Source: Morchella semilibera (taxonomy: Eukaryota; Ascomycota; Pezizomycetes; Pezizales; Morchellaceae). Taken from it: a stretch of 64,000 bases of DNA. Below are positions 904-59,790 of the stretch, piece after piece. Under the pieces are notes generated by a model. It did no database searches. It was not told the origin of the DNA and saw only the letters and a list, made by a program, of their open reading frames with translations. The DNA is taken from positions 2,542,001 through 2,606,000 of the forward strand of contig CM018604.1 in NCBI GenBank assembly GCA_009192285.1, given 5' to 3'. The stretch's first letter is position 1; every line of letters starts with the position of its first letter. The translations under genes were made by a program, and so were the position numbers.

Positions 904-1963
904 TATGCATACTAAGTGTTAATGAATATTGGTTCTGCGGTGATGGCATATTTCATGTAGAGTTGACCTTGGTCACCAGATTGACATATTTGTCTAGAGA
1001 GCCGTTTGGGCCGACCAGCTTCCGAAGATGTACCTGTAGTTAATTAAATTCTAATCCAGATGAGGAAGCCACGAGACCAAGCAAATTGCGCTATTAACTT
1101 AGCCGGGATGTGGGAAGGATCTTATCTCGCTTGGCAGGGCACTCATCACCCACTGGCCTGTATCATTGGCTACAGGCTTATGGGGTGAAAGGGGTGAAAA
1201 CGATATGTAGATGACGGTGGGGTATTGTTAAAAGGGTTGATTAGGTTGGGGGATAGGTGCGCCTACATGTATTTACTCTAATTACCGCCGTAATGTTAAT
1301 TTTGCGGGGATATGCTAAGAGGCTGGGGATGAACGCAAAAAGGCATTCCTCGTGCCGGAAACGTACAAACAGCCCAGAGTATGCTACACGAGAACAAGGC
1401 CTTGGGTTTTGGAGGATAAACCGTTCAAATCCCACACTTTAGGGGCCCTCCGGCATCTAAATCCATATCCCCATTGATGAGCGTAGAGTACGGAGACTAG
1501 AACTAGGTTTCTAGAGTACCAGTCGTGCATGAATTAGGACATACTAATTCCACACCACATAATAAAGTACATGTAATTCCACACCCCCAGTCAATCAAAC
1601 TTGTACCTGCCGTGAGTGAGTAACCTAGCCACATTTCGCAACGAATCCATGTTCAATCAATGCCCTGTCAGTTCATTCACAGCTAGTTACATTCGGCGCC
1701 ATCATTCACCATAATAAAAACCTGTCTCAGCGCCGGGTCCCCTTTTCTTTCTCTCCCCTCTTTCCCCTACCCTCACCTACTTCTATCTTTCATATCTACC
1801 TCCACTGCCTCCAGGCATCCCTTCTTTTTGTTCTATCACCGCAATTCTGTCACTCTTTGAAAGTCGCTCATTCTTCTCTCGTGTTCACTCCTTCACGCAG
1901 GCTCTCTCTCTATAAACGGTTCTTTACAATTTATTCCCAATCTTTTATTTCAATATAATCACA

Positions 1964-2833
1964 ATGCGTTTCGCCTCTACCCTTGTTTTCGCAATCTCTG
2001 CCTTGACCTCCCTGGTTGCCTCTGCAACTACAACGTCGTCGGGCGAAAACCCAATCACTTACCCTCTTGGCGGCAGTATCAAAGCCGGTTCTGATGTTAC
2101 AATCACTTGGTATGATCAAGCCGTCATTTAGTACAACATATACTATTATCTTAACAATCTCGCTGACTTGGTGGATTTTAGGAGCGTTACATCTGGCACT
2201 TCTTGCGACCTTATCCTCAGGAAGGGCAAAGACACCGATTTAGATGAGGTCCTGAACATCGCAAGTGAGTATTAAATTTCCATTATTATACCTACAAATG
2301 GATGGCAGGTCTTATCTTCACACTTACTAACGCACCTAACAGCCGGTATTCCTAACACTGGTGCTTTCACCTGGTCCGTCTCCCCCAAGATCCCGGCTGG
2401 CAACGACTACTCTATTCAGATCGCTGCTGGCGACAAGGACAACTACTCGCCCATGTTCACAATCGAGTCTGATGTGACCTCCTCCCCCTCCTCCTCCTCC
2501 TCCTCCTCCTCCTCCTCCTCTTCGGTTTCCGTCACCTCGACCTCTTCCAAATCGTCTTCTTCCAGTGCTTCCTCGACCACCTTGGCTACTTCCACCACAG
2601 CATCTACCACTATTTCACCCAGTGCTACCACCACCACCACCGCCGCAGCCAACGCCTCCGCAACTGCCACTGGGTCGTCCAACTCTTCTGCTATTCTTAG
2701 CACCACCCGCTCTGCTTCGTCTGCCACCCCTGAGGCCACCGTGGTGGCCGCCAATGTCAACAGTGGCGCCCAGATTGCCTCCCCGCTAGCTTTGGTCATG
2801 TGCATCCTCGCCGGTCTCATGTACCTCAACTAG
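1964..2833 (+). CDS. GPI-anchored Ser/Thr-rich cell-wall protein (Kre9/KNH domain)
   Basis: Three exons (1964-2109, 2182-2264, 2343-2833) give 239 residues. Residues 1-20 (MRFASTLVFAISALTSLVAS) are a signal peptide. Residues about 25-120 form a Kre9/KNH-type beta domain, with features such as ITYPLGGSIKAGSDVTITW and a later GAFTWSVSPKIPAG. This is followed by a Ser/Thr-rich stalk whose start is a poly-Ser run encoded by a TCC microsatellite, and by a hydrophobic C-terminus (LALVMCILAGLMYLN) typical of GPI-anchor signals. Proteins of this family sit on the plasma membrane or cross-linked in the wall; the exact role of most is unknown. Both introns restore the domain exactly (W codon split across intron 1). 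Confidence is high for the family, low for a specific function. Confidence 0.9.
2479..2521 (+). repeat. TCC trinucleotide microsatellite inside the CDS
   Basis: A run of TCC codons encodes the uninterrupted poly-Ser stretch that starts the stalk of the GPI-anchored wall protein. Such repeats change length easily, so the stalk length probably varies between strains (inference). Confidence 0.85.
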
Positions 2834-3597
2834 GTTATCGAAAATGTATTGTTGAGTTAGCGGTGCTTGTGGGGAAGGAGATGATTGAATTTTTAATGTT
2901 TCACAAGTTATTGTATGATGGTACCTTTTTTTTTCTTATGGTGACATGCATTATCCGATAATGACAGATGCTGTCGCGTTGGCTTCACAGGTTCCCGACT
3001 AGGATTCTTTTTGCCGTTTATTCTTTTAACATATTTTATATTCTTCTTCTGTCTATTGCTATTCTTCTTGTTCATTCGGTGTTTGTAGGAATAATGATTG
3101 AGTGACATCCATAGTCAAACAGTTGAAAAGTTCCTGTGAGATATGAAGATACCCGAGATTCAAGAGAGCACCGCAAAGCCTGTTGGAAGAGATTTGCCTT
3201 TTATAAAGGATGTAGATTGGCCAACGGTGCAATCCACTATCTATTGTTGCTCGAGTGGTGAAGCGAGTGGTCTCTTCCAGAAGTCTGAGTGCATTTGAAG
3301 CCAAAAGTCCTCACCAATTGTCACTCGGCTTGGCAGCCCAAGGCTCGATTGTCGGCTGAGCCAATCAGTCCCCCTATGGCTCATTCGCACAGTCAGCTTT
3401 ATCTTACATAAGATTCCATCCGCTGCGCTATCCCTTAAGCTGTCAATTAATGCTGCCATAATAGAGGGTGAGAATTCGTATGGGAGATCAAATATTTGAT
3501 AAGAGAGATAATAAGATCTATTATCAACTTTTGCTTTTTTCTGGGGGGCAGCATTTACTAACAACCTAAGGGTATATACGCAGTCTAAAGTCAATTT

Positions 3598-3735
3598 GGG
3601 GCAACGACGAACCTGGGGCAACGACGAAAACACATGTTCCAGTCAATCAAGCGATTAGATTCCAGCCTGAGCACCTATACTTTATCCACTAAATATCCCT
3701 GTTCGTCGTTCAACTAGTTTCGTCGTTGTCCCTAA
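3598..3735. repeat. Inverted repeat with doubled CAACGACGAA motifs
   Basis: Two direct copies of GGGGCAACGACGAA stand 17 bp apart at the left (3598-3628). Two inverted copies (TTCGTCGTT at 3702-3710, TTTCGTCGTTGTCCC at 3718-3732) stand 16-17 bp apart at the right, so each end has a tandem pair facing inward. A further copy, GGCAACGACGAGCGATTG, is at 4098-4115. No clear target duplication is seen. It could be a short MITE with sub-terminal repeats or a cluster of protein-binding sites. Confidence 0.5.
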
Positions 3736-4287
3736 AATGACCTGAATCGATCCTTCTATATATAAATATACACCAAACCCCTGCATCTGCAACCTTAGAG
3801 ATTTCCATTCATTCTAGTCTATAAAACAACCACAGCAGAGTATAATCGCGATAGGTTCATAGGTTATCACTCGGTAGCTAGACCAACGAGTTGCCTACAT
3901 TTCAGCCTCCCACATTTATTATATATTATAGGATCAACAAGCCCAAAGGAGGCACCATTGCCACTAGGCCCTGAGAGTGTATGGGCACCAGCCAACCATT
4001 CTATAACTACATGTATATTCACATCGAGCCACCCCAAAGCTAAATTTTCCAACATCCATACATTCTCTAGTCAATCAACGACAGCATCGGAACCGGAGGC
4101 AACGACGAGCGATTGAACCAGCCGCCTTATCTCGCGGGATTGACAGTCCTCAAGTTAATTATATGTTTCCCCTTGACCCCAATGCTAGCCGTCTAGCGTA
4201 CTTGAGCTCACTCCCCTCCCGCCTTTTAAGGTGGTCTCTAATTTAGAATATCTTAAAGCTTAAGGAGGAAAATCTAGATACAGCTTA

Positions 4288-7905: not shown

Positions 7906-9384
7906 GACGACGTGAGAGTGTTGACTGGGTTTGTATATAATTGATAGATAGCAAGCAGGTCAAGGGCGGACTTCCGGTGGATAAGGAGGAGGAGGAGGAG
8001 GAGAGGAGGAGGAGGAGGAGGAGAAAGGGGAGGCTGAAGAACAGGGACCGCCCCCAACTGGTTGTGGTGATGAGCTTCATACGCTCTGACGACGACAAGC
8101 ACGTGGCGGGACGAAGGGATGTGGCTGTGCAAGCTACACCATCGTTCTCTCTGCCCGGACAGTCCACATACAGTATACATACATGTATATTTATCTGAAG
8201 GTACAATACGAGAAATGGGGGTCAGCTAGCTATTCTTCATGAAGGCTGCACTTTTGAGAAATCTTTTGTTGCTCAGGCACGCGAAGTTAATAAAACCACT
8301 ACAAAAAACATTGTATAGATTCAGTTTTTCTTTACCTTTCACATCAACTGTCCATTAGCATTGCGGTGAGCGTTCTAATACTAGAACATCTTGTTTCTTC
8401 TCCTTTGTGCTTTTTGTTACCAGTGTTGAAAGCTTATCATTCTCCCTCCCTCTTTCCCACACATTTCAGTTCACAGCCTACTTTCATTCTTTCTGATACT
8501 CTACCAGCTTAAATTCAAGCCCCAAGTCTAGTTGCGATACGTTGCAGAGTGCCTTATTGGCATGCCTAGCTGCGAACCAATCATTGACACCATTGTTTTA
8601 TTAGTTGGTTGCAATCCGTCCATTCTATTATAAGTAGATCCCAACAAAAGTCTACCCGCCCCAAACCTGTTTATTTGACAATTTTCTGTAGGCCAACCGA
8701 ATATATATATATTATATTCATGATGTGAATAATCCCAGTAGACAGGGCATTATGAATAGCAGGGAGATCCAGCTTTCAGGAAGTTGAAACTTCCATACAC
8801 GTCCGGGCGCAGCACGGGACACCAACATGTTTTTCCTTCCGGACTCCAGAAAAGATGTAAAAAAAAAGGAGGTAAAAAGGGGAAGTATATGATTTACACT
8901 GATGACCAACAAACCAACCCAAGGCATTAGATGTAAAGGGGAGAGAGGGAGAGAGACTATCGAGCTCAGACTATTTCGACCTCGATGCACTTCCCGACCA
9001 GGTACAACCCTCTATGAGGATAGGATGAGCGGCTGGCTAATAAAAAAAAAGATATATCAGAAAAACGGAGGAGAAAGATAGGATAGCCAGCATATGGGTG
9101 AGATAGCTGAAATGTACGCTGCAGAAGACATTGAAATCTCCTGCCAACAAGAAAAACAGTTTTACATGCTTGCAACGCTTGGAGCCCTGAAGTACCAACA
9201 AGCAAAACAGGTAGGTAAATCCTGTTGACTGAGATAACCACTGCGTGAGGGTTGCAACGTCCAAAAGCGCGCAGAAATTGGCTGCATCGAAGACAATGAT
9301 GCATGAATTCGTAACCAGTTTTTGGTTTACAGTACCCTATCATTCAGTTAGTAAGGATAGTTATATTAGGCCTAGATTTTTCCA
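7906..9384. other. Intergenic between abp1 and rpb7
   Basis: The left part is the abp1 promoter and 5' UTR, with a GGA microsatellite at about 7984-8025 and a TACATGTA octamer at 8179. From about 8250 to 9384 I see only short overlapping ORFs without domains; the right part should hold the 3' UTR of rpb7. No RNA gene recognised. Confidence 0.55.
7984..8025. repeat. GGA microsatellite in the abp1 upstream region
   Basis: Purine-strand GGA/GAG triplets run for about 42 bp, 80-120 bp upstream of the abp1 start codon. On the coding strand this is a TCC/CTC pyrimidine tract, a common feature of fungal core promoters and 5' leaders. Confidence 0.8.
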
Positions 9385-10079: not shown

Positions 10080-10988
10080 TATAGCCTGTTGAGACGGTTG
10101 ATTGGGAGATAGTCCGTGGTTTCTTTTTCTTTTGAGTATAATCTCCTGCCGACGGGAGGGTTGAGGTGATGTGGGGTTGAAGGAGAGTGAGGGTATATTA
10201 TAGTGGGTAAGTAACGCGTTTTGAAGCTTCACTGGGATTAAAGCGATGAAGACGTGAGGATGTACCTACATGCATGTAACAGCAGCCTACCGAATTACAA
10301 AGGCTTTGTTGCGGCGCTCGTCAAAATTGGTAACTGAAGTGGCAACCACGGATTTTTTGAACCGGTAAAACTAAGACAACATCACATTGAATAATCCACA
10401 TTCGGAACTTCCGATTAATCAGTAATCCGCCAAGAAAACAATCAATAAAGCCATTCTCGCTACCTGATAACCTAATCTGCCAATAATCCGGCCCCAAAAC
10501 GGCAGCCGAACCACCGAGAATCTTAAAATTCATTACCGACGATGTATTAGGCACACCCGAATCGTCATCTGCAGTACCTACATGTACTCGTAAGTACTAG
10601 TACGGCTTCTGCTGTCCCGGAAAGTACCTGCTCAAAAACAGCAATGTGAAACTGATGAACTACTCCGGCAACCCTGCCTGGAAGAGTTGTGTATATAACC
10701 CTCACAAGGGTTGCCGGTGGGTTTGATGACTGCACATATCCTACAATGTTATTGTCGTTACTGCAAGTCTACATGTAGTTACGCCACACTTCCACATCCA
10801 ATCTCCAATCACAGTTCCCTCCGAATTCTGCCGCTGCCCACCCATCCAGCCGCCGCCAGGTTTGTCCTCGTCTGCAAAATTCATCATTCTTTCCCCGCCG
10901 ACGTCCGTGGTCTCAGAACTCAACTCTCCCCTCAACCACACCTCCCCCCCACCCACCTTAATTATCATCATCGCCATCATCATTAACA
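10080..10988. promoter_or_regulatory. Shared divergent promoter region of rpb7 and atp1
   Basis: A 909-bp gap between divergent start codons. It holds two TACATGTA octamers (about 10579 and 10771), two CCAAT boxes close to atp1, and a C-rich stretch just before the atp1 ATG. No gene-like ORF was found, so it presumably drives both genes. Confidence 0.6.
10798..10809 (+). promoter_or_regulatory. Two CCAAT boxes upstream of atp1
   Basis: CCAAT occurs at 10798-10802 and again at 10805-10809 (the second as CCAATCA), about 180 bp before the atp1 start codon. CCAAT is the binding core of the HAP/CBC complex, which in ascomycetes controls many respiratory genes. A role here is inference from position and gene function. 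Confidence 0.45.
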
Positions 10989-13250
<2,262 letters not shown>

Positions 13251-14411
13251 TAAACATAAGCCTCATGTTTTTCTCATGGTAAATTTGGCCTCATAGCATT
13301 TTTGTACACCCTTTCTTTGTTACTTTGCTCCAATTCGCATAAACTTTATTGACAACAAAATATATGTTTACACGAGTGAAGTAAAAATTTATGTGTCTCT
13401 TTGGTTAGTCAATGTTAGAGGAAAAAAAGTCGTGACACGGGGACATAAGGTTGCTGTATTTACCGCGAATTTTACTAGTTGCTATTTGTATGTGATTTCC
13501 TTCAAGGGATCGGATGTTGCAAAAGTTCTCATCACAATCACTTAATTATAAATCCAATTGACTCGTCTACTATAACCAGCCTTAGGCTGTGTTACGGTAT
13601 CAAGGTATGCTGTTACCGTCGTTAATAGATACTGGGTATTAGGGCGTATTGGCCAACAACTTCTGAGTCTAGATATTTAGTTCTTGGCGGTTTTTGGTGT
13701 GGATACTTAGCCCGCCAAGAGCTCGAAATTTGAACTCAAAATTTGAAAATATGAGTGTGGCCAACACGCTCTATTGACGGATCCCACCAAAGAGAAACAG
13801 CCGCCCATTTACAGTATCCGTCAATACCCAGTAAGTGACGGTACCATCCCTATTTTGCACCACCATATTCTACATACCAGCTTCAGGGCGTTGCTAAGCG
13901 TAGCGCAACTCCAGTGAATTACATGTACCGCAAATACTCGATCAAAACTACATGTACTACGGAGGGCCGGCCATGGTTGTTAGAGATTTTAGGCCTTGCA
14001 TCAATTTTGAGAAATACTGTTCGCCCATCCAGCAAAAAGATCCCTGCAACCTAGTAATTTTGATGGTTGGCCTAAGGTTTCTAACAGGCCATAGTTCTGG
14101 AGACTTACCCCCTACACCCGTAGTACTTCCATAGGAAATATTTGATGTAGATTGATGCCATCCAACCAAGCACCCGAGAGATAATGCCTGGGCGGAGCTA
14201 GCGAGTATTTGCGGTAGGTATGTCTAAGGATACGATGATTATGTAACAAAGTGATCGCCAATGCATGTATTTATATAGTAGTAGATCTCACCGGACAGGC
14301 TTAAGCCACTTCCTCAGGGGTCAAGTTCTCTTTCAGTAACTTTAAGATCCCTTCTCCCACCTAGAGTTGTGCTCTGCTGGAGAACAGCTCATTCTAAACA
14401 CATTATTCAAG
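13251..14411. other. Intergenic with a nested palindromic repeat
   Basis: No gene recognised. It contains the atp1 3' end, a nested inverted-repeat structure at 13612-13850, and two TACATGTA octamers only about 30 bp apart (13920 and 13952). The last about 150 bp should be the promoter of the dipeptidyl aminopeptidase. Confidence 0.55.
13612..13850. repeat. Nested foldback element (MITE-like)
   Basis: Several inverted pairs are stacked. The outer arms are TACCGTC...ATACTGGGTATT (about 13614-13640) against AATACCCAGTAAGTGACGGTA (about 13823-13843). An inner pair is AGGGCGTATTGGCCAACA (13641-13658) against TGGCCAACACGCTCT. A short pair is TATTGACGGATCC against GTATCCGTCAATA. A central hairpin is CTTGGCGG against CCGCCAAG. 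It looks like one small inverted-repeat element inserted in another, or one element with repeated arms. It is non-coding and the superfamily is uncertain. Confidence 0.5.
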
Positions 14412-32946: not shown

Positions 32947-33732
32947 TTATTTCTTATCACTATTGCCAGAGAGCTCCGAAGTAGGGTTGAGGTCTTCGGG
33001 GCCAAATGACATAGGCAGGAGCTGACGACCACAAGGTGAAAGAGATTTATCAGTGCACAATTCTAAAATTCCCAGGGTTGATTAAGACTCTTTTATTCTC
33101 ACCTGCTCTAGTGTCCTGACCACGTATTCCGCGTTCTTGTCGTACATGAAAATAGGTGTATCAAGGCTCGCGAATTCGCGAATGAATTGACGGCACATCC
33201 CTATTGACCCGATTAGATTGTAATTATGTAAATACATGTAATCTGGATATTCTAAGCTTGAAAATTTCGAAAGAGTGCCTCTTACCGCATGGTGATGACG
33301 GCGGGGTAACGTTCGTGGCGACACCAATTGCCCTATACTTTTTTTTCCCCTCTGTCTAAAATACCCCCCGCCTCATGTCAGTATCAGATTCAGTCACTCT
33401 GGAAATTCTAACCTTGAACCTACAATCGCTTTTACCAGAGCTACTCTCTCGGCGCAGATAGTGACCGGGTATGAGGCATTCTCAATGTTGGCACCAATGA
33501 CCCACGAGCCATCTTCGCAAAGCAGAGCGCAACCGACCTGAAAGTTTGAGTAAGGGCCTAGAGTTGAAGAGACATATCAATATACATTCCGAAAGAGCCA
33601 ACGTGAAGCTCAACCACAGCAGCAGCGGCAGTACGAAAAGCACCTACAGTATGCAACATCTTTAGCCGCAATCGTCCGCTTAGTAAGTTCTGTAACTTCG
33701 GTGGCGTTGAGTCCGTGGAGAAGATCGCTCAT
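32947..33732 (-). CDS. cdd1: Cytidine deaminase
   Basis: Five exons (33732-33648, 33557-33424, 33355-33286, 33200-33103, 33021-32947) give 153 residues, typical of the tetrameric type. Zinc-site motifs are CAERVAL (C-A-E with the catalytic Glu) and PCGMCRQ. The substrate loop AYCPYSNFQVGCALL is split by intron 1 inside the Cys codon and comes back exactly. The C-terminus is LLPMSFGPEDLNP. It deaminates cytidine and deoxycytidine to uridine and deoxyuridine in pyrimidine salvage. All introns leave the frame intact; the choice of acceptor in intron 1 matters because a later AG would skip PYSNFQ. Confidence 0.95.
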
Positions 33733-36505
33733 GATTACGGAGGAAATACGGTAGAAATGATTCGAGAAATTTTATAGGTTGTTGAAGCTGGTGGTGGGAT
33801 TTGCTTAAGTGCGGAGGTTACGATAGCTTCAGTGATACCCTGACAAAGGCAAGCAATATCGCCAAGCAAACTAAGTAAGATCACGACTTACAGATCGCAG
33901 TCGAGTTTCTTCAAAAGCGTCCAAAGTTATGTAAAGGTCTAATAAAAGGCAGCAACTTCCATCAGAGCCGGTAGTTTTAAAATGAGGTTTATTCATTTAC
34001 TAATATCATGTCTCCCCCAGGTATCGGTGATTAAAGCCTACCTACAGAGATAAGAAGGGCCCTCGCTCGGGGCGCCAAGTAACCTACCATACCCGCGAGG
34101 CACATATGTATCTTTGTAAAATGACTCCCAAAATTCTACGTACTTTACCATTTAATTGGTATACCAGCTACTCCGAAAACCTTGGTAGATGGCCCCTAGA
34201 CTAGGAGAGGTACCAAAACGCGCCAACCACCGGAAGCAAAGGGATCGATAGGCAACACATGGCAGTCGTTCGAAGGCTCTCCATACTGCACATAGCACGA
34301 CCATACATACATACATTATATGAGGACATGTGCTAAGTCAAGCGTACCGGGCCTTTTATCGCATCAGTGGTAGGCATATATGCAGAGATACCCAGATGTG
34401 TGTGGGAGGGACGCAGGCAGGTTTCCAGCCCGCGTGGAAAGTAATAAACCCTTGATATATGTTCACAGATTATCACTCGTGTCCCTTCCTCGCGATTAAC
34501 ATTTGAGTAATCGTACAGTCGGGCAAGCCGTTTGAAACAATTGCCTAGGAAATTGTATACATCATCTAACGATAATTCTTGTTACTAGTCGGACAGCTGC
34601 ATGCGCACCATCTCCATGCTGAGACACTATCTACCAATGCCCCGGCTCCCAAGACAACACCCCCATCTAGCCAAAAGTTATGCATCGACTGCCAGCCATT
34701 GGGTCCGCATGTCTTGCTGCGCACCATAGTCTACCTAGGCTTGTATCAGGTAGGTCATACGACCGTGCAGATATGATCCTCTCAAGAGCCTCTTACCAAA
34801 CCCCATATCACCGACAGCTCTTGGTACCCGTCGATCCGGAGCTAAAGGCCCAATACACATAAACTCAAATATTCTGGGCAGATATCGCCGATTAGCAGTT
34901 ATTTCGTCAAATTATATTCTAGATAATTGTCGCCATTGCCGGTCTGTGCGTATAACTAACATTTCCTGGTGATACCAATCATCGTCCCAATGGAACAACC
35001 CATTACACAACATATCGTGGCTTACATCGCCTCGATGCTAGTTTGTCCTTTGGAAATTTAGGAGCGGGGAAACCGGAGGTGCGCACTATGAGTGAACGAG
35101 AATATTGTGTAGTGATACCTAAGTAAAATGATCATTGGGAAAGTCTTAGATGGCTCGTCGTTCCCCAAGGCTCCATATCTTGTCTAAATCTACCTACATG
35201 TAGCTACTATAACCATACTCACGTGTACCCGGCGCCATGACACTAGAGAGCGGAGCTATCACGGGATACCAAGGCACTAGGTAGATAGGGAACTACAGCA
35301 AGTATTAGCAATTGGAGTACCAGTAGGTTCCAGGTGCAAGGCAGGGGGATAAATGTAGAGCTATCTACCTTCCTACATCATGTCCGAATAGCGCCATACA
35401 TACGAGTTAGCCGCCAGAAGACGTAGTACGATCCACCCATCGATGGCCCATGATCAGCGCATTTGTTTCAAAATTGTCCAAAATTAGGGTCGAAGTTAGT
35501 ATATGCGATGAGTGCTACAAAAAAAAAAAAGCCATATCAGCCTTTACACAATCCGTAATTAACCTTTTCAAACGGCTGTGACGTTTGCAATTCTTATTCA
35601 CCGCGAAGAACGCCTTTATACATATATACAGGGGCCTTCCTTGGTTAAGCAGGTACCGGGCTACGGCGTAGCACTTTCCTAAATATCCAGCCCCGCCCTC
35701 CTACGGGGGGGAAGGGGAGGGGGGCTTGCGGTCACCGCAGCAAAAGATGGTCGCTTATCGGCGTGAACTTTTTACTACAGGGAGCAAGGATCGACTTGTT
35801 CTTCCTGAACAGTCAAGTATCACGAATGGCCAACGTGCTCACGTGGGGTTGAGACAACCATTTTAGGGATGTTTTCAACGGATCCCTCATTAAGTCTGTC
35901 TATTAAGCCTGTCTATTAAGCCTTAAGCCTGTTCAGCTTCGCATGGTAATTCCTATGCTGGTAGTCGTTCCTGGGATCCTCACAGCGGAAGGATTTCGGC
36001 CAGTAGATAGTTCATCCAGTTAAATTTTTGTTTATTTGGTTTGTTTGCCTCCTCTTGCTCGAATATCGACACGAGCCCCGAGACTACCATTCCCCGGAAA
36101 CTAACCAGTCAGGTTTTTAATTGGGCGGATCATAGATAAACTGTCAGGATAAAAAAAAAAAGAACGCGTCTTGATCTCAAGGTACGTCTTTCATATGATT
36201 GGCTGAACGGACATATGTACGACCTTCAGATTTGTCAAGCGAGTGATAGGGCTGTGAGGGGAAGGCCTCCCGTTGGTTGGTTTAGGCGCTCGCCCTATTG
36301 ACCTCGAAAACTGGTTCACCGAAGGCACCGAAGGCAATCGAAGCTGGTTAGATATGAGTTGCGGGGTCCAATTGCTCCCAACACTCACATTCTCATCAAT
36401 TTGGATCTGGCGGCAGCATCTAGCATGGTCATGCAGCTTCATGACGAAAAGTGTTTCCGCGCCATGTAGATGCACAACCAAACATTTTCCCTCCTCCTCC
36501 TCCTT

Positions 36506-36543: not shown

Positions 36544-37905
36544 AGCCGAGCAAGCCTTGTAGAAAAGGTGTGGCTATAGAGGTACTACGTACCCCCATGG
36601 AATTATTATGGGGGAAAGTTAAGACATTTTATAACTTGCGGCGGCGGCGTGGCTTTATGGCATGTTTACAAATGTGAGTGAGGTTGAGGAAGAAAATAGG
36701 GATGGGATTCTCTCGGTTCCACCGCAAATTCTGCGAAAGGGATCTGAAAGTGGCATGATACCTAATAAAACTACGGCCCTCCAGCGGGGATCTGTTGATT
36801 CCTAGTGTCGAAACCCTGGTTGGAATTGAAGTTTAGCGTTGGTCTAGGGTTGTATACATGTATGTATACATGTATGTATGTGTAGTGGCGCCGGTATAGT
36901 CGAGACTCCTGTGCCGAATTGAGTAAACATATGCGTAAAAATTGACTGGGTGATGGACGTCCAGAAGCTGTAACTAGACTTCAGTGATGCCATGATGCAT
37001 ACAGAGGCCTAAGTGGTTAAAACCTCAATGCTTTTGTCCAGAACCTTACCCAACTCGATATTTATGCTGAGGTACGTACCGCGTAATTAAGGGAGGCATC
37101 TTACAGTCAGGTTTCTTAAAGCGAGGCACTGTAGCTATATAACAGTGCTGACGCTGAACCGTATCAGATGGCCTTACTTTATGTATTCTGTCTACACGTA
37201 TTCAGGATGTATTTACATGTACCTAAAGTGGAAGGGGGAGACAGAGATAAGCTACTCAATTACATGTAATCAACACGAAGAAACACTATCAGATATATGG
37301 GGCAGGATACCTTCCGCGCCGTTTATTTTTGGTGAAGAGCAACTTATGTGCGCGATACTGTGCACAGGACACATACTGCCAGACGTCCTTCCAGCTCTTT
37401 GGATATTCAGAATCATCCTCCTGTCGTTGAGGAATCAAAAAATAGGAACTAGGTACTCTACATCAACATGTGTTGACGCTTGGAGTAAGCCGCCGGCTTG
37501 CGCGCCGGGTTACTTTCTGTATGCGCACGAGCCAGTCGTGCCCCTGACCTAAACTGCATCTCAACACACCCCAATTTGTATCCATGGTAGCTTGCCCCTG
37601 CCCAAATTTAGGAGTACTAGGCTAATGCGGTTAGTGGTCCACGGCAGCACCACTGCGATTCGCGCTTCAATGTTCCACAATCACACATAGAGAGACTCTA
37701 CAATTGCAAGAGAACGACAGCAATTGTTGGCCAAGGGCCTGGGGTAAAAAAACCATTTATTGACTCTGTTTTGCCAATTGAGTGTCCAGTACATGGTACG
37801 TTATTATTACAGAGTCTACATACAGCCCGCAGTAGACATCCCGGTTGGGGCAGGTGTCGTACCTACATGTACCTACATCTAGTACTAGCGCTTTTATATG
37901 TACTC

Positions 37906-37923
37906 TACATGTAGGTACATGTA
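37906..37923. repeat. Paired TACATGTA array
   Basis: Two octamers spaced 10 bp start to start, about one helical turn. The same 19-bp sequence (TACATGTAGGTACATGTAC) is repeated exactly at 41655-41673, nearly 3.8 kb away. Confidence 0.8.
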
Positions 37924-39119: not shown

Positions 39120-40847
39120 ATGCCTTCTGCACGCCCCGTTATATCACAACCTGCTCGCCCACCGAGGCATCATACCCCGGCAGTGACTCGTAAGATCTCC
39201 AAAAGGCGTTCTCTCTACGACGGTTCTTCTTCATCGGACGAAGGTCCTCGCCCTACATTCAAACGTGTATCGTGCTGTACTGCCGGAATAAGTTCAAGCA
39301 ATCCTGAAATGAAGATGAGAGCACCTATTCCCGCAATGGACCCTGTTGATTTCGACAACCTTCCTCCCGCTGTTCGACGTAAAGTAAGTCCACAAGTAGC
39401 ATTTTAATATTCTTTCGTTGAAACCCAGCTCTTATCCCAGCCAAGGTCCAATTGTGTAAAACTACATGTAAGGATCTATATCTAACAATTATTTGTGCAG
39501 TACTTTTCGTCGCTTGAAAGACTACGGTATGCACAGCAGCAACACATTGGCTCCTCATTACCACCCTCTAGCCATGGTAGAAGCCAGAGCTCACACAGCG
39601 CAAAGCCCAGCAAACCAAAATCAAGGGCCAGGCCATCCTTCGATAGCTTTCGAAGCAACTCTTCACTACCTCAAACATCAAATTTTATACTAAGTAGACC
39701 ACCTGGCACAACAGCCGATGAGTTCATTTTATCACAGGCAGATGCTAAATGGTATCTCGAGCTCCCCGAAACAATCAGGAGGAAACACTTTTCGAGGGAG
39801 GAACGCATCTTATTAGCAAGCAAGTGTGAGAGCATAATTGTGGACGCAGCAGATGAAACTATTTACAGAATTGGGCGGCAGGCGAACCGAAGCCTAGACA
39901 CTCTAAACAGCCTGTCATCAAGTTCAACATCACGGGCATCATCTCTAGACTTGGATGGGATGAACGCTGTTGAAGAAATTAGGAAGTCGTTTAGGTGGAT
40001 GGAAGAAGATGGTACATTGGATTTACGTCTGGATGAATTTTGCAACCAAGTATCAAGAGATCCAGTAAGATCTCAGGGGAAACCGTCAATTCAGAGGGCG
40101 ATGTCATTATCTTCAAGACCATACAGGGCACCTTCATCGCATTCGTCCTCTCCTAGTCGGCCGTCGCTAGGGTCAGCCCGTCGTCCAGCGTCGCACAGCA
40201 TGGGCGGTTCGAGGCAAAGAAGTATTCATTCGATCGATAAAGATGCGGCGTACTATCAAGACCCAGAAGCGCGATTGAAGCTCCGAGTTTACCTTGCATC
40301 TCCACAAAAATTTGATGAGGCCATTGAGTTTGGGTTTCCCTCGGCGACAGGATGTAGGGACTTTTTCAAGTGCCGACCAAACACTTCGGCAACTATTCGT
40401 AGGGTCGATCCTGGGCTTGACGATCACTCAAGCCTTGATAGTCCACTCTTCGACAATTTCGATGATACTGAGACATCTTCGGCGCAGAACGAGCTGCTTG
40501 CCTACCACAAGCTTAGGGAGAATAAATTTAGAGAATTCGGCGAGCCATTGATGGGTACAAATATATTACCTTCACGCATGAACAATGGCACTCTATTTGA
40601 CCCTTACCTTCATGCGGAGCCTGGTAATAGGGAGATGACTTTGAGAATGACGCTCACAAGGAAGGATCTGCGAGCGGATGAAAATGAGCTGTATGGTTGG
40701 AAAAAGGATACCGATCCCCTGGCGCTTGAGGAATTACCTCCAGTGAGTGATTCTGACGCTGGGCAATTTGATTGGGGAAATGCAGGGAAGGACTCGGATT
40801 CGGGGCTGAAACGGCTTTGGCGAAGAATCACGGGAGGGAGTCGGTGA
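39120..40847 (+). CDS. Fungal conserved protein, 'mucin-like', function unknown
   Basis: Two exons (39120-39383, 39501-40847) give 536 residues. It is Ser/Arg-rich and mostly disordered. Conserved blocks are PAVRRKYFSSLERLRYAQ (spanning the intron), DEFILSQADAKWYLELPETIRRKHFSREERILLASKCESIIVDAADE, an Asp/Glu-rich segment with SFRWMEEDGTLDLRLDEF, and DPEARLKLRVYLASPQKFDEAIEFGFPS. Orthologues in other Pezizomycotina, as I remember, are annotated only as 'mucin, putative'. There is no signal peptide or membrane helix, so the mucin label is misleading; an intracellular, phosphorylated scaffold is more likely (inference). The intron holds one TACATGTA octamer. Confidence 0.85.
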
Positions 40848-43800
40848 TACAAGCGATTGGCGCTTGAAATCGGGGCCTAGTTTTTTTTTTTTTTTTTTTT
40901 TTATTACACCATTTCACATGTCTATTCTTCATTTTCTATTGTCACTCCTGCTGCAAGAACCGCGGCGATCATCGAAATTCTTCGCTTTCCTTAAATTCCT
41001 TAAAATCACTTGTTTATTTGTCTATTCATCAGGGTTGGCGGCGCATGGTCTTTTTTTTCCTTTTTTTCCTTTTTTTTTTATTGTGGCTATATTCTCTTTA
41101 ACTTCACGTCTATTATGAAATCCGGTATATTGTTGGGCTGCTTATCTTTTATACAGCATTGGTCTGTGAGGCCGAGTCACTTCCTTATGCGTTTTACTAT
41201 TGTTTCGGGGTTTCTTCATCTTGGTTTAGCTGCACTGCAAGCGATTTGGGGTCTTTCTTGGAAAAATTTACCAGGTTGGCGTATTATGCATTTTCATTCT
41301 CACCGCTCGTTTTCCTACTCGCTCGCATTCCTAGTTTTCTGTCTACACATGTAAAAAAATTCTTACTTGAGTCCCCTTTTGAGCTATTGATACCCTTGGG
41401 GAGTTTTGGCGGGGGCATTTTTTTTTTCGTTCATAAGGTTCATAGGTTGCTGTCACCATAGGACAGGATAATTGAGCCGGATGGCTTTCAATGGGGAAAG
41501 GCTAGGAGAAATTCAATCAGTCGTGTGGATGAACCACAAGAAATTTACTACAATACTCGTTCATTGATATCTGATACCTCAATTGTCCCGTTTCCTGCAA
41601 GTTTCCGACTGGCCTTCGCTTATAAATGCTTGTTTGAAACCTCCCAAGAATTATTACATGTAGGTACATGTACATACATCAACAAACATGTATGTATGTA
41701 TGTATGTACGTTTTCGCATGTAAGTGCAATCACCCTCACTGATAGGCCACTGATATATAATCAAAGGAAAATTATACTCCCGTCTGAGCTGGTTACGGAT
41801 CATTACATGTGTTTATCCAACACGCCTTGCATGCTTCATACTCCAGACAGTCGTACACAGGTGAGAAAACACTGTACATTGAGCCTATTGAATTGTTTTA
41901 GCTCACGGGGCACATCTAGAGTCCATGTATGTGCGAACGGATTTTGTCCTTCATTTTATTTTAAGCTTTTCGGGAACGTGGTTATATAATCATGTGTGTA
42001 ATCTCGCAACTGATGTCAGGACGAAAACAATGATCTACCAAGGCTGGATTTGACTCAGATCACGGACCCTGCAAGGAGTTGAGATGCCATCGTGGGGTGG
42101 GGGGTGAGGGGTGGGGGGAGGGGAGAGAAAGAAGCTTAGAATTTGGGGGGCCTTATTCGACGGGGCCAGTACCCTACAAGTATGTTTGGTCCGGGGCGTA
42201 AAAGGAAAGAAGGGGGAAGGATAGAACATCCGGTGCGAACGGTCTGTGAACCCGACCGGGCATAAATGTCTCGGGCAGTAAGAGTACACGTACAGAACAA
42301 TCCATCACGAACATTATAGAATAGTCCAGACTCGTGTTTGTTTTTGTTTCGACTCGGAGAGTGCTTTCTTGTTTACTCAAGGATCTTCAATCAACTGAGA
42401 TCACAAGATATCACCCGAATCACATGACTCGTTCTGCAGCTCATTGCATGGCGGCTCGGGAATCTGAAGCATAGCGGGATCGGATGGGAGTTGGAGGTTG
42501 AGAAAAATTTTACTTCTTCCCTGTTCAGATCCACGGGTCGGTCTCATCTCCTATACAGGGCTTGCTTCACGGATTTATAACTGCAGGCGTCCTGTATGAT
42601 AACAAGAAAAGAGATCTTGGAGAGTAGGTATGTACATGTATGTACGTATATTCCTGTCATGGCTACGATTTGTGAGTTCTCCAATTTACCCCATCTTTTA
42701 CGGCACATACAGAAGTCTTATGACAAATAATTTTCCTGATATCAACAACGGCAACTCTCTATCTCTACCAAGGAAACAATATAAATTCACCCCAGGATCA
42801 TTCCAAGTTGGTGGTTCTGGGGTGAGCGCTCACCGACAAGGCGCCCCAAAAGCTTGCGATCTACAGACTGGAAGAGCTTGATTTTTCGCTACCCCTTACA
42901 CTAACTGAGTTGTACACTACTCGGGGTACCTTAGAATGTATCAGGATCCTAGAGATCCAGGGGTATAAGCTCGTCCAACCATGTCGAAGGAGTGAAATAT
43001 TGAACACAAAACACAAAAGAGCAAAGCGAAACTACATGTATTAGCCTTATTGCCTTCTTGCCCTTCCCGAGTCATTTCTTGCATGGCCAACCGAAATGTG
43101 CCGTGAGCTTAAGCCCTAAAAATTATTGCCCGTATGTTTCGGTTTCGGTTTCGGTTTTGTATTGCGATATCCCGTGCTAGCGATTGAGATTCTTTGACAG
43201 CCACTGAAAGGGCCGGAGCAGGAAAAAAAAAAGCCACCTATATCATACCGCAACGTTTCGGGCATCCGTAGAGCGGACGGTAAATACCGAAGGAAATATC
43301 TCAACACGGAGAACTTCCAGAACGCTCGGAGGGGATTCGGATTGCGAAATAAATAGGGGATGTCCGGTGCGCTAAATTAAAGATATTCGTCGCAAAATCG
43401 AGAAGTTTATAGTAACTATGTAGCCTTTTGGGTTTTAGCACTGTCAGAACTACTTTCGGGTTAGCAACTAATCCTGGATTCAGACGGAGGACCGCGACAT
43501 TGATCTTGCTTACTAATACATACAAACTGCGCGCCAAGACCAGCAAAAATGACCATACAAGCGACATTGTCCCGCCCAAATATTTTTATAACTCAACAAC
43601 CAGGAATGATTTCAAAAATTCAAGCAGATAGAATAGAGTAGGTAAACCTGGGTCTCTCCATCCAATAAGATTAAGAATATGTGTTGTGGTAGGTGGGCTA
43701 TAACCGGTCAAACTTGAGGTGTTCAAATTGCTCCGTGTCAAGGATTCCCCCCATAGCCGTGTAATATTTGATTAGTCACCTACTCTTCACTCTAATCCGA

Positions 43801-54650: not shown

Positions 54651-57552
54651 GTTTGCTGGATAAGCGTGGTGTTTGTTGTGACCGGCACAGAGTTGTAGTT
54701 TGAATTTGCTTGTTAATGAGTGGTATTTGGACGTGGTCCAAACGGTAGTAGTTAATGAGTGTGAAGGTGATTTACAAGAGCCTCATGAGACGGTATTTCT
54801 CATTACTCACAGGCGGTCCGTGGGAAAAGGAAATCAGTGACAGCGGGCTGCTGTAAAGAGTGTGTGATAATAGTTTATTCCTACGGGGATTTCAAGTGGA
54901 TGTCGACGGACGGTTCTTCCAACACACAGGTTGGAGGGGTGGAAAAAAACTAGGTAGCCAACTATTATGCAACAACACAGGTAAAGAGCGTGAGATGTTA
55001 AGGAGTGTGGAAGAAGAAGTCGGTGTCTATGGTGGTGTTCGGTCTTCAAGACTCGAGACAGGAAATGAAATTCTCTAAGCTCCGTCCAGGGGCCTGCAGA
55101 GAAAGAGGAAAGGGCCCAGGAAATGTCCCGCGCGCAAAAACGGCCTTAGATGTAGTTTATGAACCAACAGGCAAGCGTGGGATGGCCACTGCCCAATCAT
55201 GGCCCGGTGAGGGCAGACAAAAGGGAGAAGGCACTGTTGATCGGTGGGGCTAGGAGCATATGCCAGGGGTAAACATTGTATCAGATACGCCAAGCCGATT
55301 GGCTCCTCCTGTGCTTGGTTTGGCGACATGTCTGAGTACAGCAGAGCAAGGGCTTCATTTAGCGCCTCTGTCCATTCAGAAGCGCTGAAAGATGGTGGGA
55401 TAAAAAGATCTATGCATGTACGGTGTACCTTACATGTGTGCATTGTGTATGAGCAACGCTTCATATGGCCAGGTGTTTCAACGTCTATTATTCACGGTTG
55501 GGCGTTGGGCGTTGAACGTCGAAAGTTTGGATGACACCATGAGCCCCTTGATCACACCATGAGAGAGAAAGAGAGGGCAGTTAATGAGGACTGTAAACTG
55601 CCGCAATACCTAGCAAATTCTCTCCCTGGGTTACCTTTCAACGATTCGCACCTTTCCTCTCTTTCCTACTAGCTATTGTCCTTGGACGTCAGCGGCTCAG
55701 AAACAAGGTTGAGCAAGGGCCCTATAACTGCACTTCTAGGCATGCATTTGCACCTCACCTCACACCCCCAACCTCCGATATCTGTTTACAAAGGTACATG
55801 TATTCATCTCGGGGCACTTTAATCATCACTACATGAGGTAGGTAGATAAAGGTCTCTATACTATCGATATCGGGTTCTTCTAATATGAATAGAAATTCTA
55901 CCTCGGAGTCTTCAATCAACAATATACCAAGGATATCCTGGCGCATTTACCCATTGACCTCGTCAAATTACCACCTTTGAGCTGCTCGAAGTCTAAGAAG
56001 AGTACCGAGTACCGAAACAACCCCAGAGTTGCGCTTGAGCCTTAATCACACACGTCTACATATATGATGAATCTACAAATAATCTATATTGATACATATA
56101 GTTACTAGCCACGAAAGACTAGTCGCCATGTAAGTGATTCGTTTGATTGCCACCGTTTAATTGGGCCTCCATACAATCGAACCCATGCACCACCTCAAAT
56201 GGCGAGGAGTGTCGACTTATCAGGTTTGTATTATGCATAACTCCCCCGCTGCTCACACCTCTAGAGAGCACTATGCTGGCAGCACTCATACAAGTCAAGC
56301 TCTGAAATCAATATCTGGGTAATCTCTAGCAGCTTGGGTCTTTAAATTTTAGGACATGGTAAATTTCTCGAATCCTACAGCTCGGTGCCTCCCGCAACCT
56401 TCTGATGAGCACCAGGGGTGTTATTAGTTCCGGGCACGTAACTACTGGTTCGCCTTGGGGATTGCAGCCAACAAATGGTATTGAGAAAAAAGACTTCAGA
56501 ATCGGACATGGAACCGCGAAATAAACAATCCATTCCGCGATCACCGCTGCCCGGTTAATCCGATGTTGCGTACCCTATATTAGACAACAAGCATATTTGA
56601 ATATATAGGGTGTTAATTACTTTCCTTGAGTGGATAGAGGTCTCGGTACCGATCTCGAAATGAACGCTTAGACGGCAGTTACGGAGGAATCCACATCGTG
56701 AGTAAGACCATGGATGTCAACCAAAAGACAGCCTTTCCTATTATCTTGTCAGAGGTACGACTATATACATGGAGATCTAATCAATCTACCTCGCCCAACA
56801 GTCTCCCATTTCTAAATATATCACTATAATTCCAAAGTAGAGCCTAAACCTCTCCTATAATTTCCACAACCACATTCTCCTACCGTAGGTATCTCTCATA
56901 TCGGGATTCCCCGCGGTCGCCGCGATTATGGCGTTAGAGAACGTGCGCATGGATGACAAGAAACATTTACATATGTGTTTACATACATACAATACCACGA
57001 GGCACAAATCTCCTACATGTACCACCTGTTTTACGCGGAGATGGATGACACCAAAACTGGAGTCATGTCTGAGACCCTGGATCTTTAACCTTACCGGAAC
57101 AACCCGAGAACTGGAGACCGGGCGGGGGAAACCTAGTAGCTGTCCTCTACTCTCCTAATAAAGAACAGTAATACTACAGGTTGATCCTTGTAAAGTACAT
57201 GTGTAGTGAAGTTATCCGGATGCTTTTCTCCCCCGCTCTGCCGGTTTCACGGACCGAGGACACTATCTACAGGTAATTCGGTGGCATCCGCACCAAAACG
57301 GCGGCAATTCTTCTAGAAGAAGTAGAGTGTCGGCTTACATGTACCGATCAATTTACGGCTTTGGGGCTTTCCCGCCGGAAATATTTATGCTAGTATAGTG
57401 AACGCCAACCATCAAAGCCATTAGTCCCATACCATGGAGTGGATGAGTCCACTTCTTTTAGGAAACGATTTCTTTCCTAAGCTCATCTAGTCAATTAGGA
57501 AGAGAAGTTCAAACAGCAACCTTATATAGAGCCTAGGACTCTTGTAGACGAG

Positions 57553-57768
57553 CTCCTGGGGTATGGTTAAACGGGGGGTATGACTAATACCACCCAATTT
57601 CAGTAATGAATTAAACGAAATTCTTAAGAACAGATGGTACTTTTTTGTAAGAATATGGAGAGCGTTTCTTAATTGTCAGCACCCATCCAGAGCATTGTTT
57701 TGTTGAACTTGGTTTTCAAATTTATGAGGAGTTAGTCGTACCCCCCAGGATAACCATACCCCCAGGAG
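57553..57768. mobile_element. MITE copy B (partner of 28722-28888)
   Basis: A 216-bp element whose termini are inverted: CTCCTGGGGTATGGTTA at the left and the complement of CTCCTGGGGGTATGGTTA at the right, each followed inward by GGGGGGTAYGACTAA. So each arm contains a tandem GGGGTATGRYTA pair. It shares most of its interior with copy A. It has about 20 extra bp (around TTCTTAAGAACAGATGG) and better-kept ends than A. No transposase. The target duplication is not obvious, so the superfamily is unassigned. Confidence 0.75.
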
Positions 57769-58079: not shown

Positions 58080-58610
58080 TCGCTCAATATGAGGGTTATT
58101 TATCTATTTATTTATACCTCATACATGTAAGCCTTTCGGTTATGGCGGTTCAATATGAGGGCTTGTTGTTATAGTATTTGTTTATTGATTTATCTTCATA
58201 TATGCAACCCGTAGGTTATGGCAGCCGCCCCTCCCTCTTCCCCAGGGTTGTTGTAATACATGTATGTTTGTTGTTATTCTTGTAATATGTTTTGCTTTCG
58301 AGAATTGTTAAATTTAGTGCCTAGGACTACATGTATTTTTCCGGTATATACAATTACAATATGTATTATATGGATATAAACTTCTATAAGACGGCTCCCC
58401 TAGGCCCTGTCATGTGGTTGGTCAATCAATCAAGTCTCGTACTGTCCAGTCCTCTCTCCAATGAGGTTACAAAATTTGGTCGATCATGGATAACCTATAC
58501 ATGCATGCGAGGGCTGCCTGTTGTAATATGGTTGCTTCTACTGATTGATTAATTAATTAAAAATTTGTATTATATGCAACTCCGTAAGTTATGACAATGG
58601 TCAACTCCAT
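58080..58610. repeat. Cluster of degenerate repeats sharing TATGCAACCCGTAGGTTATGG
   Basis: Three related units: CATGTAAGCCTTTCGGTTATGGCGG (58124-58147), TATGCAACCCGTAGGTTATGG (58201-58221) and TATGCAACTCCGTAAGTTATGAC (58573-58594). CAATATGAGGG precedes two of them (58087, 58151). The 58201 copy is identical over 21 bp to 4947-4967, 53 kb away. These are remnants of a dispersed repeat family of unknown type. Confidence 0.6.
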
Positions 58611-59368
58611 GCCTAAGAGTCAAATAACAAAATTGGTGATTTGTGGCCTATAGTGGTATCAGGTAGAATTATGATGGGGAATTGGGGGTGCCTCTGCATC
58701 TGCCTACAAATCGTGGAGCTGTGTCGAAGCTTAAACTAAACGTTCCAACAATGTTAAGAGCAATTGCAACTGAGACAAATATTGAACAGAAAGGTGTTGT
58801 ACATAATTTTAGTGTTGATCTGGTTTAGCAGTCTCTGTATGATCTGTACTTCGCTCTAGATTGCGTATACAAAAAGTGACGGCCAGTTCAGATAATGCTC
58901 GTTACCCACAATATATACATAGCTGGTGGAAACGTGTATTATACACGCTGTCGCCAAATACAGTAATGCTGTGTTCCCTGGCTCTATAGATCTGTAATTC
59001 GGCGCGGACAGGCCATATGGAAACAGCTGTAGCTCGGGGGCTATGGAACAGCAATTAGAATGGTGGGCCGACCGAGGCTCATTTATTTAGCATGGTTAAT
59101 TATAATCCCAACATAATTATATACATGTAATAAAGATAAGAGGCATTGGTTTAGCATCTAATCACCAATAATCACTCGCACAGAAATACTAAGCATGCTA
59201 TTAGATATTTCTCGCTCAACACGATGAGGTCACAGTGCTAAACCTGTATCTTCTTGATAGGTCTAAGAACATGTAGCTAAGTACATAGATATCGAAAAGA
59301 AAAACGAGGTTTCAATGCCTAGATACTTTATGTACTTACTGGTTTGTTTCATTAAACTTAGATGTATC

Positions 59369-59392
59369 CTTCTTCTTCTTCTTCTTCTTCTC
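59369..59392. repeat. TTC microsatellite
   Basis: Eight TTC triplets in the gene-free region upstream of tfb2. On the minus strand a shadow ORF reads it as poly-Arg, which is not a gene. Confidence 0.8.
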
Positions 59393-59790
59393 TTTTTCAA
59401 ATATATGTAGCCACAATTCCTGCGGGGCCCTTTATTATCAAAAGTGAAACTATTGTACATGTAAGTACTAAATAAGTATCAAGTCATCCTGTTAAGTACA
59501 GTCGCACCATCACCCTCACAGTTGTGTACAACCACAGCCATTTCAACCATTCACTCATTCACGCCCGTTCCCTTTCACGACTCACAACTCACGGCCTACG
59601 ACACCTCGCGACTTCGCACTCCTTCACCTATTACACCCTCTCAACACCGTCCCTGCCAAGCCCTACTGCATTACTACATAGTAAACACACCCGGGTAACT
59701 GGAAAACCGTAGAGCTATTCTATCGTACATTCTCGGCCACCGCGCTTGACAGGACAGCACTGAGCTTCCTATAGCCCAACCTTTCGCACA

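Follow-up and report, generated by a model that had tools for sequence, protein, structure and literature searches.

An exact palindromic octamer dispersed through non-coding DNA of Morchella semilibera, a putative site for a DNA-binding protein

Copies in the window and their abundance in the genome

The window, a 64,000-nucleotide stretch of Morchella semilibera DNA, contains exactly 37 copies of TACATGTA between positions 1264 and 59463, in agreement with the sequence-only reading, which had counted about 37 by eye. All copies listed here are exact matches, and overlapping or 10-bp-spaced pairs share a line.

1264..1271, strand., TACATGTA, between predicted genes
1568..1575, strand., TACATGTA, between predicted genes
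4008..4015, strand., TACATGTA, between predicted genes
8180..8187, strand., TACATGTA, between predicted genes
10579..10586, strand., TACATGTA, between predicted genes
10770..10777, strand., TACATGTA, between predicted genes
13920..13927, strand., TACATGTA, between predicted genes
13949..13956, strand., TACATGTA, between predicted genes
28707..28714, strand., TACATGTA, between predicted genes
28921..28928, strand., TACATGTA, between predicted genes
29026..29033, strand., TACATGTA, between predicted genes
30402..30409, strand., TACATGTA, between predicted genes
31012..31019, strand., TACATGTA, between predicted genes
31168..31181, strand., two overlapping TACATGTA copies, TACATGTACATGTA (31168 and 31174)
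33233..33240, strand., TACATGTA, between predicted genes
35195..35202, strand., TACATGTA with C and G flanks (CTACATGTAG)
36855..36862, strand., TACATGTA in 12-bp tandem repeat 36851-36879
36867..36874, strand., TACATGTA in 12-bp tandem repeat 36851-36879
37214..37221, strand., TACATGTA, between predicted genes
37261..37268, strand., TACATGTA, between predicted genes
37864..37871, strand., TACATGTA, between predicted genes
37906..37923, strand., 10-bp-spaced pair TACATGTAggTACATGTA (37906 and 37916)
39463..39470, strand., TACATGTA in predicted intron 39384-39500
41655..41672, strand., 10-bp-spaced pair TACATGTAggTACATGTA (41655 and 41665)
42633..42640, strand., TACATGTA, between predicted genes
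43033..43040, strand., TACATGTA, between predicted genes
55795..55802, strand., TACATGTA, between predicted genes
57014..57021, strand., TACATGTA, between predicted genes
57336..57343, strand., TACATGTA, between predicted genes
58122..58129, strand., TACATGTA, between predicted genes
58257..58264, strand., TACATGTA, between predicted genes
58328..58335, strand., TACATGTA, between predicted genes
59122..59129, strand., TACATGTA, between predicted genes
59456..59463, strand., TACATGTA, between predicted genes

Dinucleotide shuffles of the window yielded a mean of 0.81 copies (maximum 4 in 100 shuffles), and Markov models of orders 0 to 3 predict 0.8 to 1.9. The expectations at orders 4, 5 and 6 are higher (6, 19 and 29, respectively) because those models are trained on the motif itself. 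Across the 56.76-Mb genome, a morel's by its best protein hit (Morchella snyderi, 94%), we detected 22,206 copies against 3,723 of the reversed word, a density of ~390 per Mb; the count takes in near-identical contig pairs (C9/C10). On a figure of ~11,000 genes for morels, the octamer would occur roughly twice per gene. In a 311-kb sample, TACATGTA occurred 122 times against 8.0 expected (order-3 Markov), the top excess among octamers, and the next 14 palindromic octamers listed were only 2.7 to 5.7 fold enriched. The octamer is therefore far more frequent than lower-order composition predicts, as the sequence-only reading had supposed. One sampled stretch, L050, is 99.95% identical to another, L049; it was retained in the octamer enrichment, flank and blastn analyses of this sample and omitted from all later ones, beginning with the gene models.

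The enrichment belongs to the exact word, which at ~15 fold is far above each of its one-letter variants in the 311-kb sample. Three variants are enriched (2.3 to 3.4 fold). Among single-letter variants the excess is confined to transitions (105 vs 44.1 expected), transversions being close to expectation (86 vs 81.3), a pattern that resembles mutational decay as much as tolerated binding. Also enriched in the sample are ATGTATGTA, ACATACAT and TATATATA. These words, the three enriched variants and the one window pair that sits inside a 12-bp tandem repeat would fit the view that TACATGTA arises secondarily from TACA/TGTA short tandem repeats or from some other mutational bias local to non-coding DNA. 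The height of the exact palindrome above all its one-letter variants argues against such an origin, which we consider quite unlikely.

Location relative to genes

Of the 37 window copies, 36 are intergenic under the predicted gene models, and the remaining one, at 39463, falls inside a predicted intron (39384-39500). This intron is supported by a Morchella snyderi protein, whose single match over 39120-40844 exceeds the protein's own length by 39 columns. The surplus equals the length of the predicted intron, and the residues brought together by splicing in the gene model run on without a break in the M. snyderi protein.

The wider sample gave the same picture, based on home-made gene models that comprise 53 genes in 301 kb, with some genes missed. 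Among 117 sampled copies (L050 left out), 114 lie between predicted genes, three in introns and none in exons. The 76.8 kb of predicted coding sequence would be expected to hold 0.53 copies under an order-3 model of that sequence. Given that only ~0.5 exonic copies are expected anyway, the count does not support active exclusion from exons; the sequence-only reading was correct that no copy is exonic and one intronic, but "excluded" was too strong.

In DNA on the 5′ side of genes (65.1 kb) we counted 62 copies, as opposed to 34 in the 65.0 kb on the 3′ side (p = 0.006, from incomplete home-made gene models). Intergenic DNA between divergent genes holds 29 copies (23.8 kb, 6 regions), that between tandem genes 17 (39.7 kb, 17 regions) and that between convergent genes 11 (15.4 kb, 9 regions). 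These counts suggest that copies favor the 5′ side of genes and divergent gene pairs; the 5′ lean is suggestive rather than firm since the models are home-made and incomplete. In the distance bins, which use gene models with score >= 20 only, the DNA up to 100 bp from start codons (3.8 kb) and from stop codons (3.8 kb) was free of copies, and copies reach kilobases upstream of predicted genes.

Both of the latter observations weigh against the idea that TACATGTA is an RNA element (for example, of untranslated regions) or a DNA-structure mark, not protein-binding DNA. UGUA is a known RNA–protein contact sequence, which favors this idea, but core and flank (below) are symmetric on both strands, pointing to double-stranded DNA. 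We regard an RNA or structural role as highly improbable.

Flanks, surroundings and clustering

The flank common to the copies is a short symmetric extension, TAnnTACATGTAnnTA. Reading outward from the octamer, 64% of the arms have T at position 3 and ~52% have A at position 4, and information content is near background by ~12 bp. The two arms are statistically independent: with TA on 92 of 234 arms, independence predicts ~3,430 genomic copies of TAnnTACATGTAnnTA, near the 3,317 observed (control 251). Complementary bases flank the octamer at position 1 in 36 of 122 cases, with 33.2 expected from base composition. Extended perfect palindromes are thus not in excess, and the earlier description of longer palindromes formed by the flanks was overstated.

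The surroundings of the copies are otherwise unrelated. A blastn comparison within the 311-kb sample (E up to 1e-5) returned no match containing TACATGTA, L049/L050 and one self-palindrome excepted, and the octamer-rich stretch 35000-38300 (8 copies) has itself as its sole match in the genome. Together with common flanks that end at ~10 bp, these results lead us to reject a single repeat family; that all copies derive from one dispersed family or miniature transposon is extremely improbable, and the sequence-only reading's view that no one transposon family explains them is supported. Neither of the two outcomes that this reading had named as refuting it, a count matching lower-order composition or membership in one family, was obtained. 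The dinucleotides beside the octamer are diverse and spacers differ within arrays, which adds to the case against short tandem repeats or mutational bias.

Copies of TACATGTA also cluster. A gapped pattern for pairs at spacings of 8-38 gave 2,666 matches in contrast to 129 for the reversed control; the spacing histogram uses 92 of the 100 matches listed, eight that start on a nested copy being left out. Pairs at 10-bp spacing number 606 in the genome (control 37), with spacer letters that vary, including within triple arrays. Flank preference predicts ~227 such pairs, and because local clustering could account for the rest of the excess, we make no claim of cooperative binding at one helical turn. 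Weak matches (four of the six letters after TA) in the 10-bp register beside an exact site occurred 14 times vs 4.1 expected. Overlapping copies, in the nested form TACATGTACATGTA, number 501 genome-wide (control 90; context-free expectation 167), and slippage could be a source of them.

Separately, we noted a second dispersed bipartite motif, CGAGTGATA-N4-RTGA, with 3,424 copies vs 2 for its control.

Transposon excision footprints as an alternative

The main rival explanation is that TACATGTA copies are Tc1/mariner-type excision footprints, in which TA is duplicated at insertion and a 2-nt overhang leaves TA-CA-TG-TA. The letters of the octamer, TA + CATG + TA, are identical to taCATGta, a rare Tc1 excision footprint in Caenorhabditis elegans (PMC3520976, excerpts). 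The morel genome has 69 matches to the DDE_3 transposase (E up to 0.001, duplicate contigs counted) and contains TA-flanked CAG...CTG miniature elements. The unrelated surroundings and TA-rich, target-like flank fit footprints, as do the 501 nested copies and the transition-type decay.

However, three sampled stretches that bear mobile elements (L033, L036 and L041) contain no octamer in 22.8 kb of non-exonic sequence, which suggests that TACATGTA is absent from them. Their TA density (59-65 per kb) is only slightly below that of the remaining 15 stretches in the comparison (60-75 per kb). The preferred TAnnTA contexts are scarcer in these three (3.8-4.6 per kb) than in stretches with the octamer (5.7-11.7 per kb, the octamers' own included), which fits footprints and makes the lack of octamers there weaker evidence than TA density would imply. 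Zero copies were also found in L031 and in four gene-bearing stretches with no mobile element seen by eye (L034, L038, L044 and L045). Another stretch without the octamer, L052, comprises 4 kb of sequence out of a region of contig C1 that has 8 of that contig's 18 DDE_3 matches.

Candidate donors are few. In ~301 kb we identified six TACA...TGTA inverted pairs, three of which are not octamers (direct-orientation control 2.5), in a scan that would miss diverged elements; some 110 excess octamers thus face three candidate donors. The other footprint that excision should leave, TACAGTA/TACTGTA, shows little excess (42 vs 32.9), and a 5′ lean is not expected from excision. The octamer has the letters of a Tc1 footprint and the genome has DDE_3 transposases, but the octamer is missing from the sampled DNA that bears mobile elements, and its copies far outnumber candidate donors. 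The footprint explanation is weakened by these results, and we consider it unlikely.

A putative binding site and candidate proteins

We favor, with moderate confidence, the reading that TACATGTA is the core of a symmetric site, TAnnTACATGTAnnTA, for a homodimeric DNA-binding protein that is probably regulatory or architectural. From the sequence patterns we infer protein binding at TACATGTA, the dimeric state and a part in transcription regulation. The protein would recognize TAnnTACATGTAnnTA as a homodimer, and selection would maintain the sites in non-coding DNA, where they may recruit a general regulatory or chromatin-organizing factor near promoters. The copies are often grouped in homotypic clusters, within which a spacing of 10 bp, or one helical turn, is strongly favored. 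Among the options offered by the sequence-only reading, a bound factor is the best supported, by inference. This analysis found no support for a replication or recombination mark, nor for the seed of a small mobile repeat; a mobile origin in the form of excision footprints is weakened as described above.

The only lead to a protein, a weak one, is a TALE homeodomain of the Irx (Iroquois) type as candidate reader. The genome has one match to the TALE homeodomain (PF05920), at C14:782200-782292, and its helix 3, translated by eye in L051, reads WFINARRR. The Irx form of helix 3 is WFANARRR, with Ala50 at the specificity position; the morel protein has Ile there, unlike Irx, and its helix is not of the Irx type. 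The likeness is that TACATGTA is the reported preferred Irx site (PMC3520976, excerpts) and that the genome has this one PF05920 match. CATG-containing DNA is bound by NACC1, a BEN-domain protein (PMC11472053, excerpts). The BEN domain (PF10523) had no match in the morel genome or in the control genomes, so its absence in the morel is uninformative about a BEN-domain reader. Five matches to PF00046 homeodomains were identified in the genome (C9/C10 pair counted), and nothing further was found linking them to TACATGTA.

Comparison with known systems and significance

The highly iterated palindrome of cyanobacteria, HIP1, is likewise an exact octameric palindrome with thousands of copies per genome. 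HIP1 occurs in coding DNA too, whereas 0 of 117 morel copies are in predicted exons.

The identical octamer is very common near genes in Phytophthora, an oomycete and not a fungus, where it was discovered in promoter sequences and linked to expression. In excerpts of the two reports, "motif-1", with consensus TACATGTA, lies upstream of 12,070 Phytophthora genes, for which a homodimeric factor was proposed (PMC3520976), and M93 of P. infestans, with the same consensus, has 4,150 occurrences in promoters (PMC3597505). Unlike in the Phytophthora promoter survey, the morel octamer was counted genome-wide and is also found downstream of genes and in introns.

Our literature search, with subscription journals mostly outside it, found no paper with both TACATGTA and Morchella. 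Searches on over-represented palindromic octamers in fungi, and on ACATGT with fungal transcription-factor terms, found none; for Morchella genome palindromes, the matches listed were by title mitochondrial-genome and review papers. A broader picture, which we hold to be doubtful, is that morels may have a genome-wide architectural or general regulatory factor, unlike those of yeast, that recognizes a nearly exact 8-bp palindrome present about twice per gene, with a parallel CGAGTGATA-N4-RTGA site, and that oomycetes may have arrived at the same octamer code independently.

If the TACATGTA sites are bound, one factor would contact a large share of the DNA near genes in a fungus of economic importance. 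If they are footprints instead, the genome would preserve the traces of something like 20,000 excisions, a remarkable record in itself.

Abundance of the palindromic octamer

The window contains exactly 37 copies of TACATGTA, in line with the approximately 37 counted by eye in the sequence-only reading, and each of 100 dinucleotide shuffles of the window held four or fewer. The whole assembly (56.76 Mb, 23 contigs) has 22,206 copies versus 3,723 of the same word backwards, and the true non-redundant number is somewhat below 22,206 because some contigs are near-identical pairs. Contigs C9 and C10 form one such pair (99.95% over 10 kb), and parallel family hits suggest that C12/C13 and C21/C22 are others. 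These pairs point either to two nuclear haplotypes that were both retained or to duplication in the assembly.

Comparison with a Markov model, as had been proposed, was made on 311 kb of sampled sequence (one duplicated 10-kb locus included). TACATGTA occurs there 122 times versus 8.0 expected at order 3, the largest departure among all octamers, even with homopolymers counted. The 14 palindromic octamers listed after it are enriched 2.7 to 5.7 fold. One-letter variants number 220 versus 150 expected on both strands (highest single variants 2.3, 2.9 and 3.4 fold), and their excess consists almost wholly of transitions. In non-coding DNA there are 105 transitions versus 44.1 expected and 86 transversions versus 81.3. 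Therefore, the full palindrome matters and decayed relatives are few.

Location relative to genes

Genes were predicted with a small gene finder trained on the sampled DNA itself, and the window models resemble ordinary fungal proteins. A Pfam scan of six raw reading frames from the window matched two, DPP IV and AMP deaminase, both largely within gene models. After removal of the duplicate locus, 114 of 117 TACATGTA copies lie between predicted genes and three in predicted introns. A protein encoded at 39486-40844 shares 94% identity with one of the pezizalean fungus Morchella snyderi, which indicates a morel or a very close relative. The intron copy at 39463 had been noted earlier and is well supported, as the M. 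snyderi protein is unbroken across the residues joined there. The best-scoring frame through the copy has a non-coding score for 35 of the 37 window copies; the remaining two score only marginally above zero, at 0.3 and 2.5.

The octamer had also been described as excluded from coding exons. None of the 117 copies falls in 76.8 kb of predicted exon, but coding sequence is expected from its own composition to hold only about 0.5 copies, so the zero indicates a lack of enrichment and does not prove active exclusion. In the better-scoring gene models, no copy occurs within 100 bp of start codons (3.8 kb) or of stop codons (3.8 kb). Density is higher on the 5′ side of genes (62 in 65.1 kb) than on the 3′ side (34 in 65.0 kb) and highest in the six divergent intergenic regions. 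Given the incomplete gene models, both trends are no more than suggestive.

Flanks, spacing and clusters

Reading outward from TACATGTA, T occupies flank position 3 in 64% of arms and A occupies position 4 in about 52%, and the two arms vary independently. The core with its short symmetric flank, TAnnTACATGTAnnTA, occurs 3,317 times versus 251 for the control. Among the 92 of 234 arms that carry the flank TA, the next letter is C or T in 84%, followed two further on by T in 55%, resembling a weak second copy. A single repeat family, already doubted in the sequence-only reading, was rejected, since flanks are unrelated and the octamer-rich stretch that was searched had no match other than itself. 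Also rejected was a simple TACA microsatellite, because flanking and spacer letters are diverse.

The pattern for pairs at spacings of 8 to 38 has 2,666 matches versus 129 for the control, spacing 10 alone gives 606 versus 37, and overlapping copies number 501 versus 90. Two-letter spacers at spacing 10 differ even within triple arrays. About 227 pairs at 10 bp would be expected from flank preference alone, and the others may reflect general clustering, so cooperativity is not claimed as proven.

Uneven distribution and mobile elements

The octamer is unevenly spread, with 21 of 53 five-kilobase blocks lacking it versus 9.9 expected. Eight of 19 distinct ten-kilobase sampled stretches are octamer-free (L031, L033, L034, L036, L038, L041, L044 and L045). 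Three of these (L033, L036 and L041) bear mobile-element sequence; L036 shares repeats with L041 and encodes, by eye, a reverse-transcriptase-like product.

DDE_3 matches in octamer-free stretches
C1:2005673, within L033
C4:501902, within L041

Together, these three stretches have no TACATGTA in 22.8 kb of non-exonic DNA of nearly normal TA density. The octamer is also missing outside mobile DNA, since L034, L038, L044 and L045 lack it and have ordinary-looking genes. On contig C1, the 1.9 Mb from about 3.92 to 5.83 Mb holds eight of the 18 DDE_3 matches of that contig, no spacing-10 pairs among the matches listed up to 6.08 Mb, and no octamer in 4 kb read from it. As nested copies occur at 4.30, 4.58 and 5.52 Mb, this region is at most octamer-poor.

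Further repeats were found in the window and elsewhere. The TA-bounded inverted repeats of the window look like miniature transposons, and two of the three end in GGCAAG-TA. Elements with TA-CAGCGATGGGG type ends are possible Tc1/mariner-type non-autonomous elements.

Other repeats and runs
Window 30488-30570, short TA-bounded inverted repeat
Window 30632-30714, short TA-bounded inverted repeat
Window 32860-32932, short TA-bounded inverted repeat
L041 1275-1391, miniature inverted repeat, TA-CAGCGATGGGG type ends
C1 near 106.5 kb (fragment C1_93311 13205-13305), miniature inverted repeat, TA-CAGCGATGGGG type ends
L048 3168-3259, ends related to the TA-CAGCGATGGGG type
Window 28724-28850 and 57566-57707, two copies of a repeat of about 130 bp, 80% identity
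Window 17884, 21344, 38921, 60116, 60540, 61052, 61566, 61889, 62225 and 62395, runs of 11 to 13 C or G

The first copy of the 130-bp repeat adjoins the TACATGTA at 28707 without containing it. Runs of at least nine C or G number 47 in the 301-kb sample, of which three fall in predicted exons. In the 311 kb, CCCCCCCC far exceeds its Markov expectation.

Binding site or excision footprint

Two explanations for TACATGTA remain serious. Tc1/mariner excision can leave TA-CA-TG-TA, a footprint that occurs in C. elegans according to PMC3520976. Such an origin would account for the sequence itself, for flanks that are unrelated and for decay by transitions. The genome also has 69 DDE_3 matches (E up to 0.001) to Tc1/mariner-type transposases. 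However, the sampled stretches that bear mobile elements lack the octamer, the TACAGTA form has no real enrichment, and candidate donors number only three in about 301 kb (direct-orientation control, 2.5) against some 110 excess octamers. The first of these points is weakened by the lower number of TAnnTA contexts in L033, L036 and L041 (3.8-4.6 per kb versus 5.7-11.7 in octamer-bearing stretches). We consider this origin unlikely. TACATGTA is probably a site to which a protein binds as a homodimer, which would account for its symmetry, exactness and short symmetric flank, as well as for the homotypic clusters, non-coding location and 5′ lean.

The same octamer is Phytophthora promoter motif-1, abundant there, in PMC3520976, and M93 in PMC3597505. 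The former paper refers to Irx homeodomains as readers of TACATGTA. A footprint left by a transposon was not expected by the same authors. The Morchella genome has one PF05920 match, with a helix that reads WFINARRR when translated by eye. Because this differs from the Irx form, the link to an Irx-type reader counts as a lead, short of membership.

A second dispersed motif

Screening of words in the sample identified CGAGTGATA, which in 22 of 25 cases is separated from a following RTGA by exactly four bases. Genome-wide, CGAGTGATA-N4-RTGA occurs 3,424 times (1,690 + 1,734) versus two for the reversed control.

CGAGTGATA motifs in the window
3865, minus strand
17705, plus strand
21755, minus strand, deviating (ATGC)
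31226, plus strand
34471, minus strand
36240, plus strand, deviating (5-nt spacer)

A text search of the literature for CGAGTGATA gave no such motif by title among the matches listed. The motif is not positioned relative to TACATGTA (10 within 500 bp versus 10.9 by chance) and, being asymmetric, is no excision footprint of the TA-CA-TG-TA type. It may serve as the site of a further abundant factor. The genome thus has at least two very abundant dispersed motifs, in keeping with the protein-binding reading of TACATGTA.
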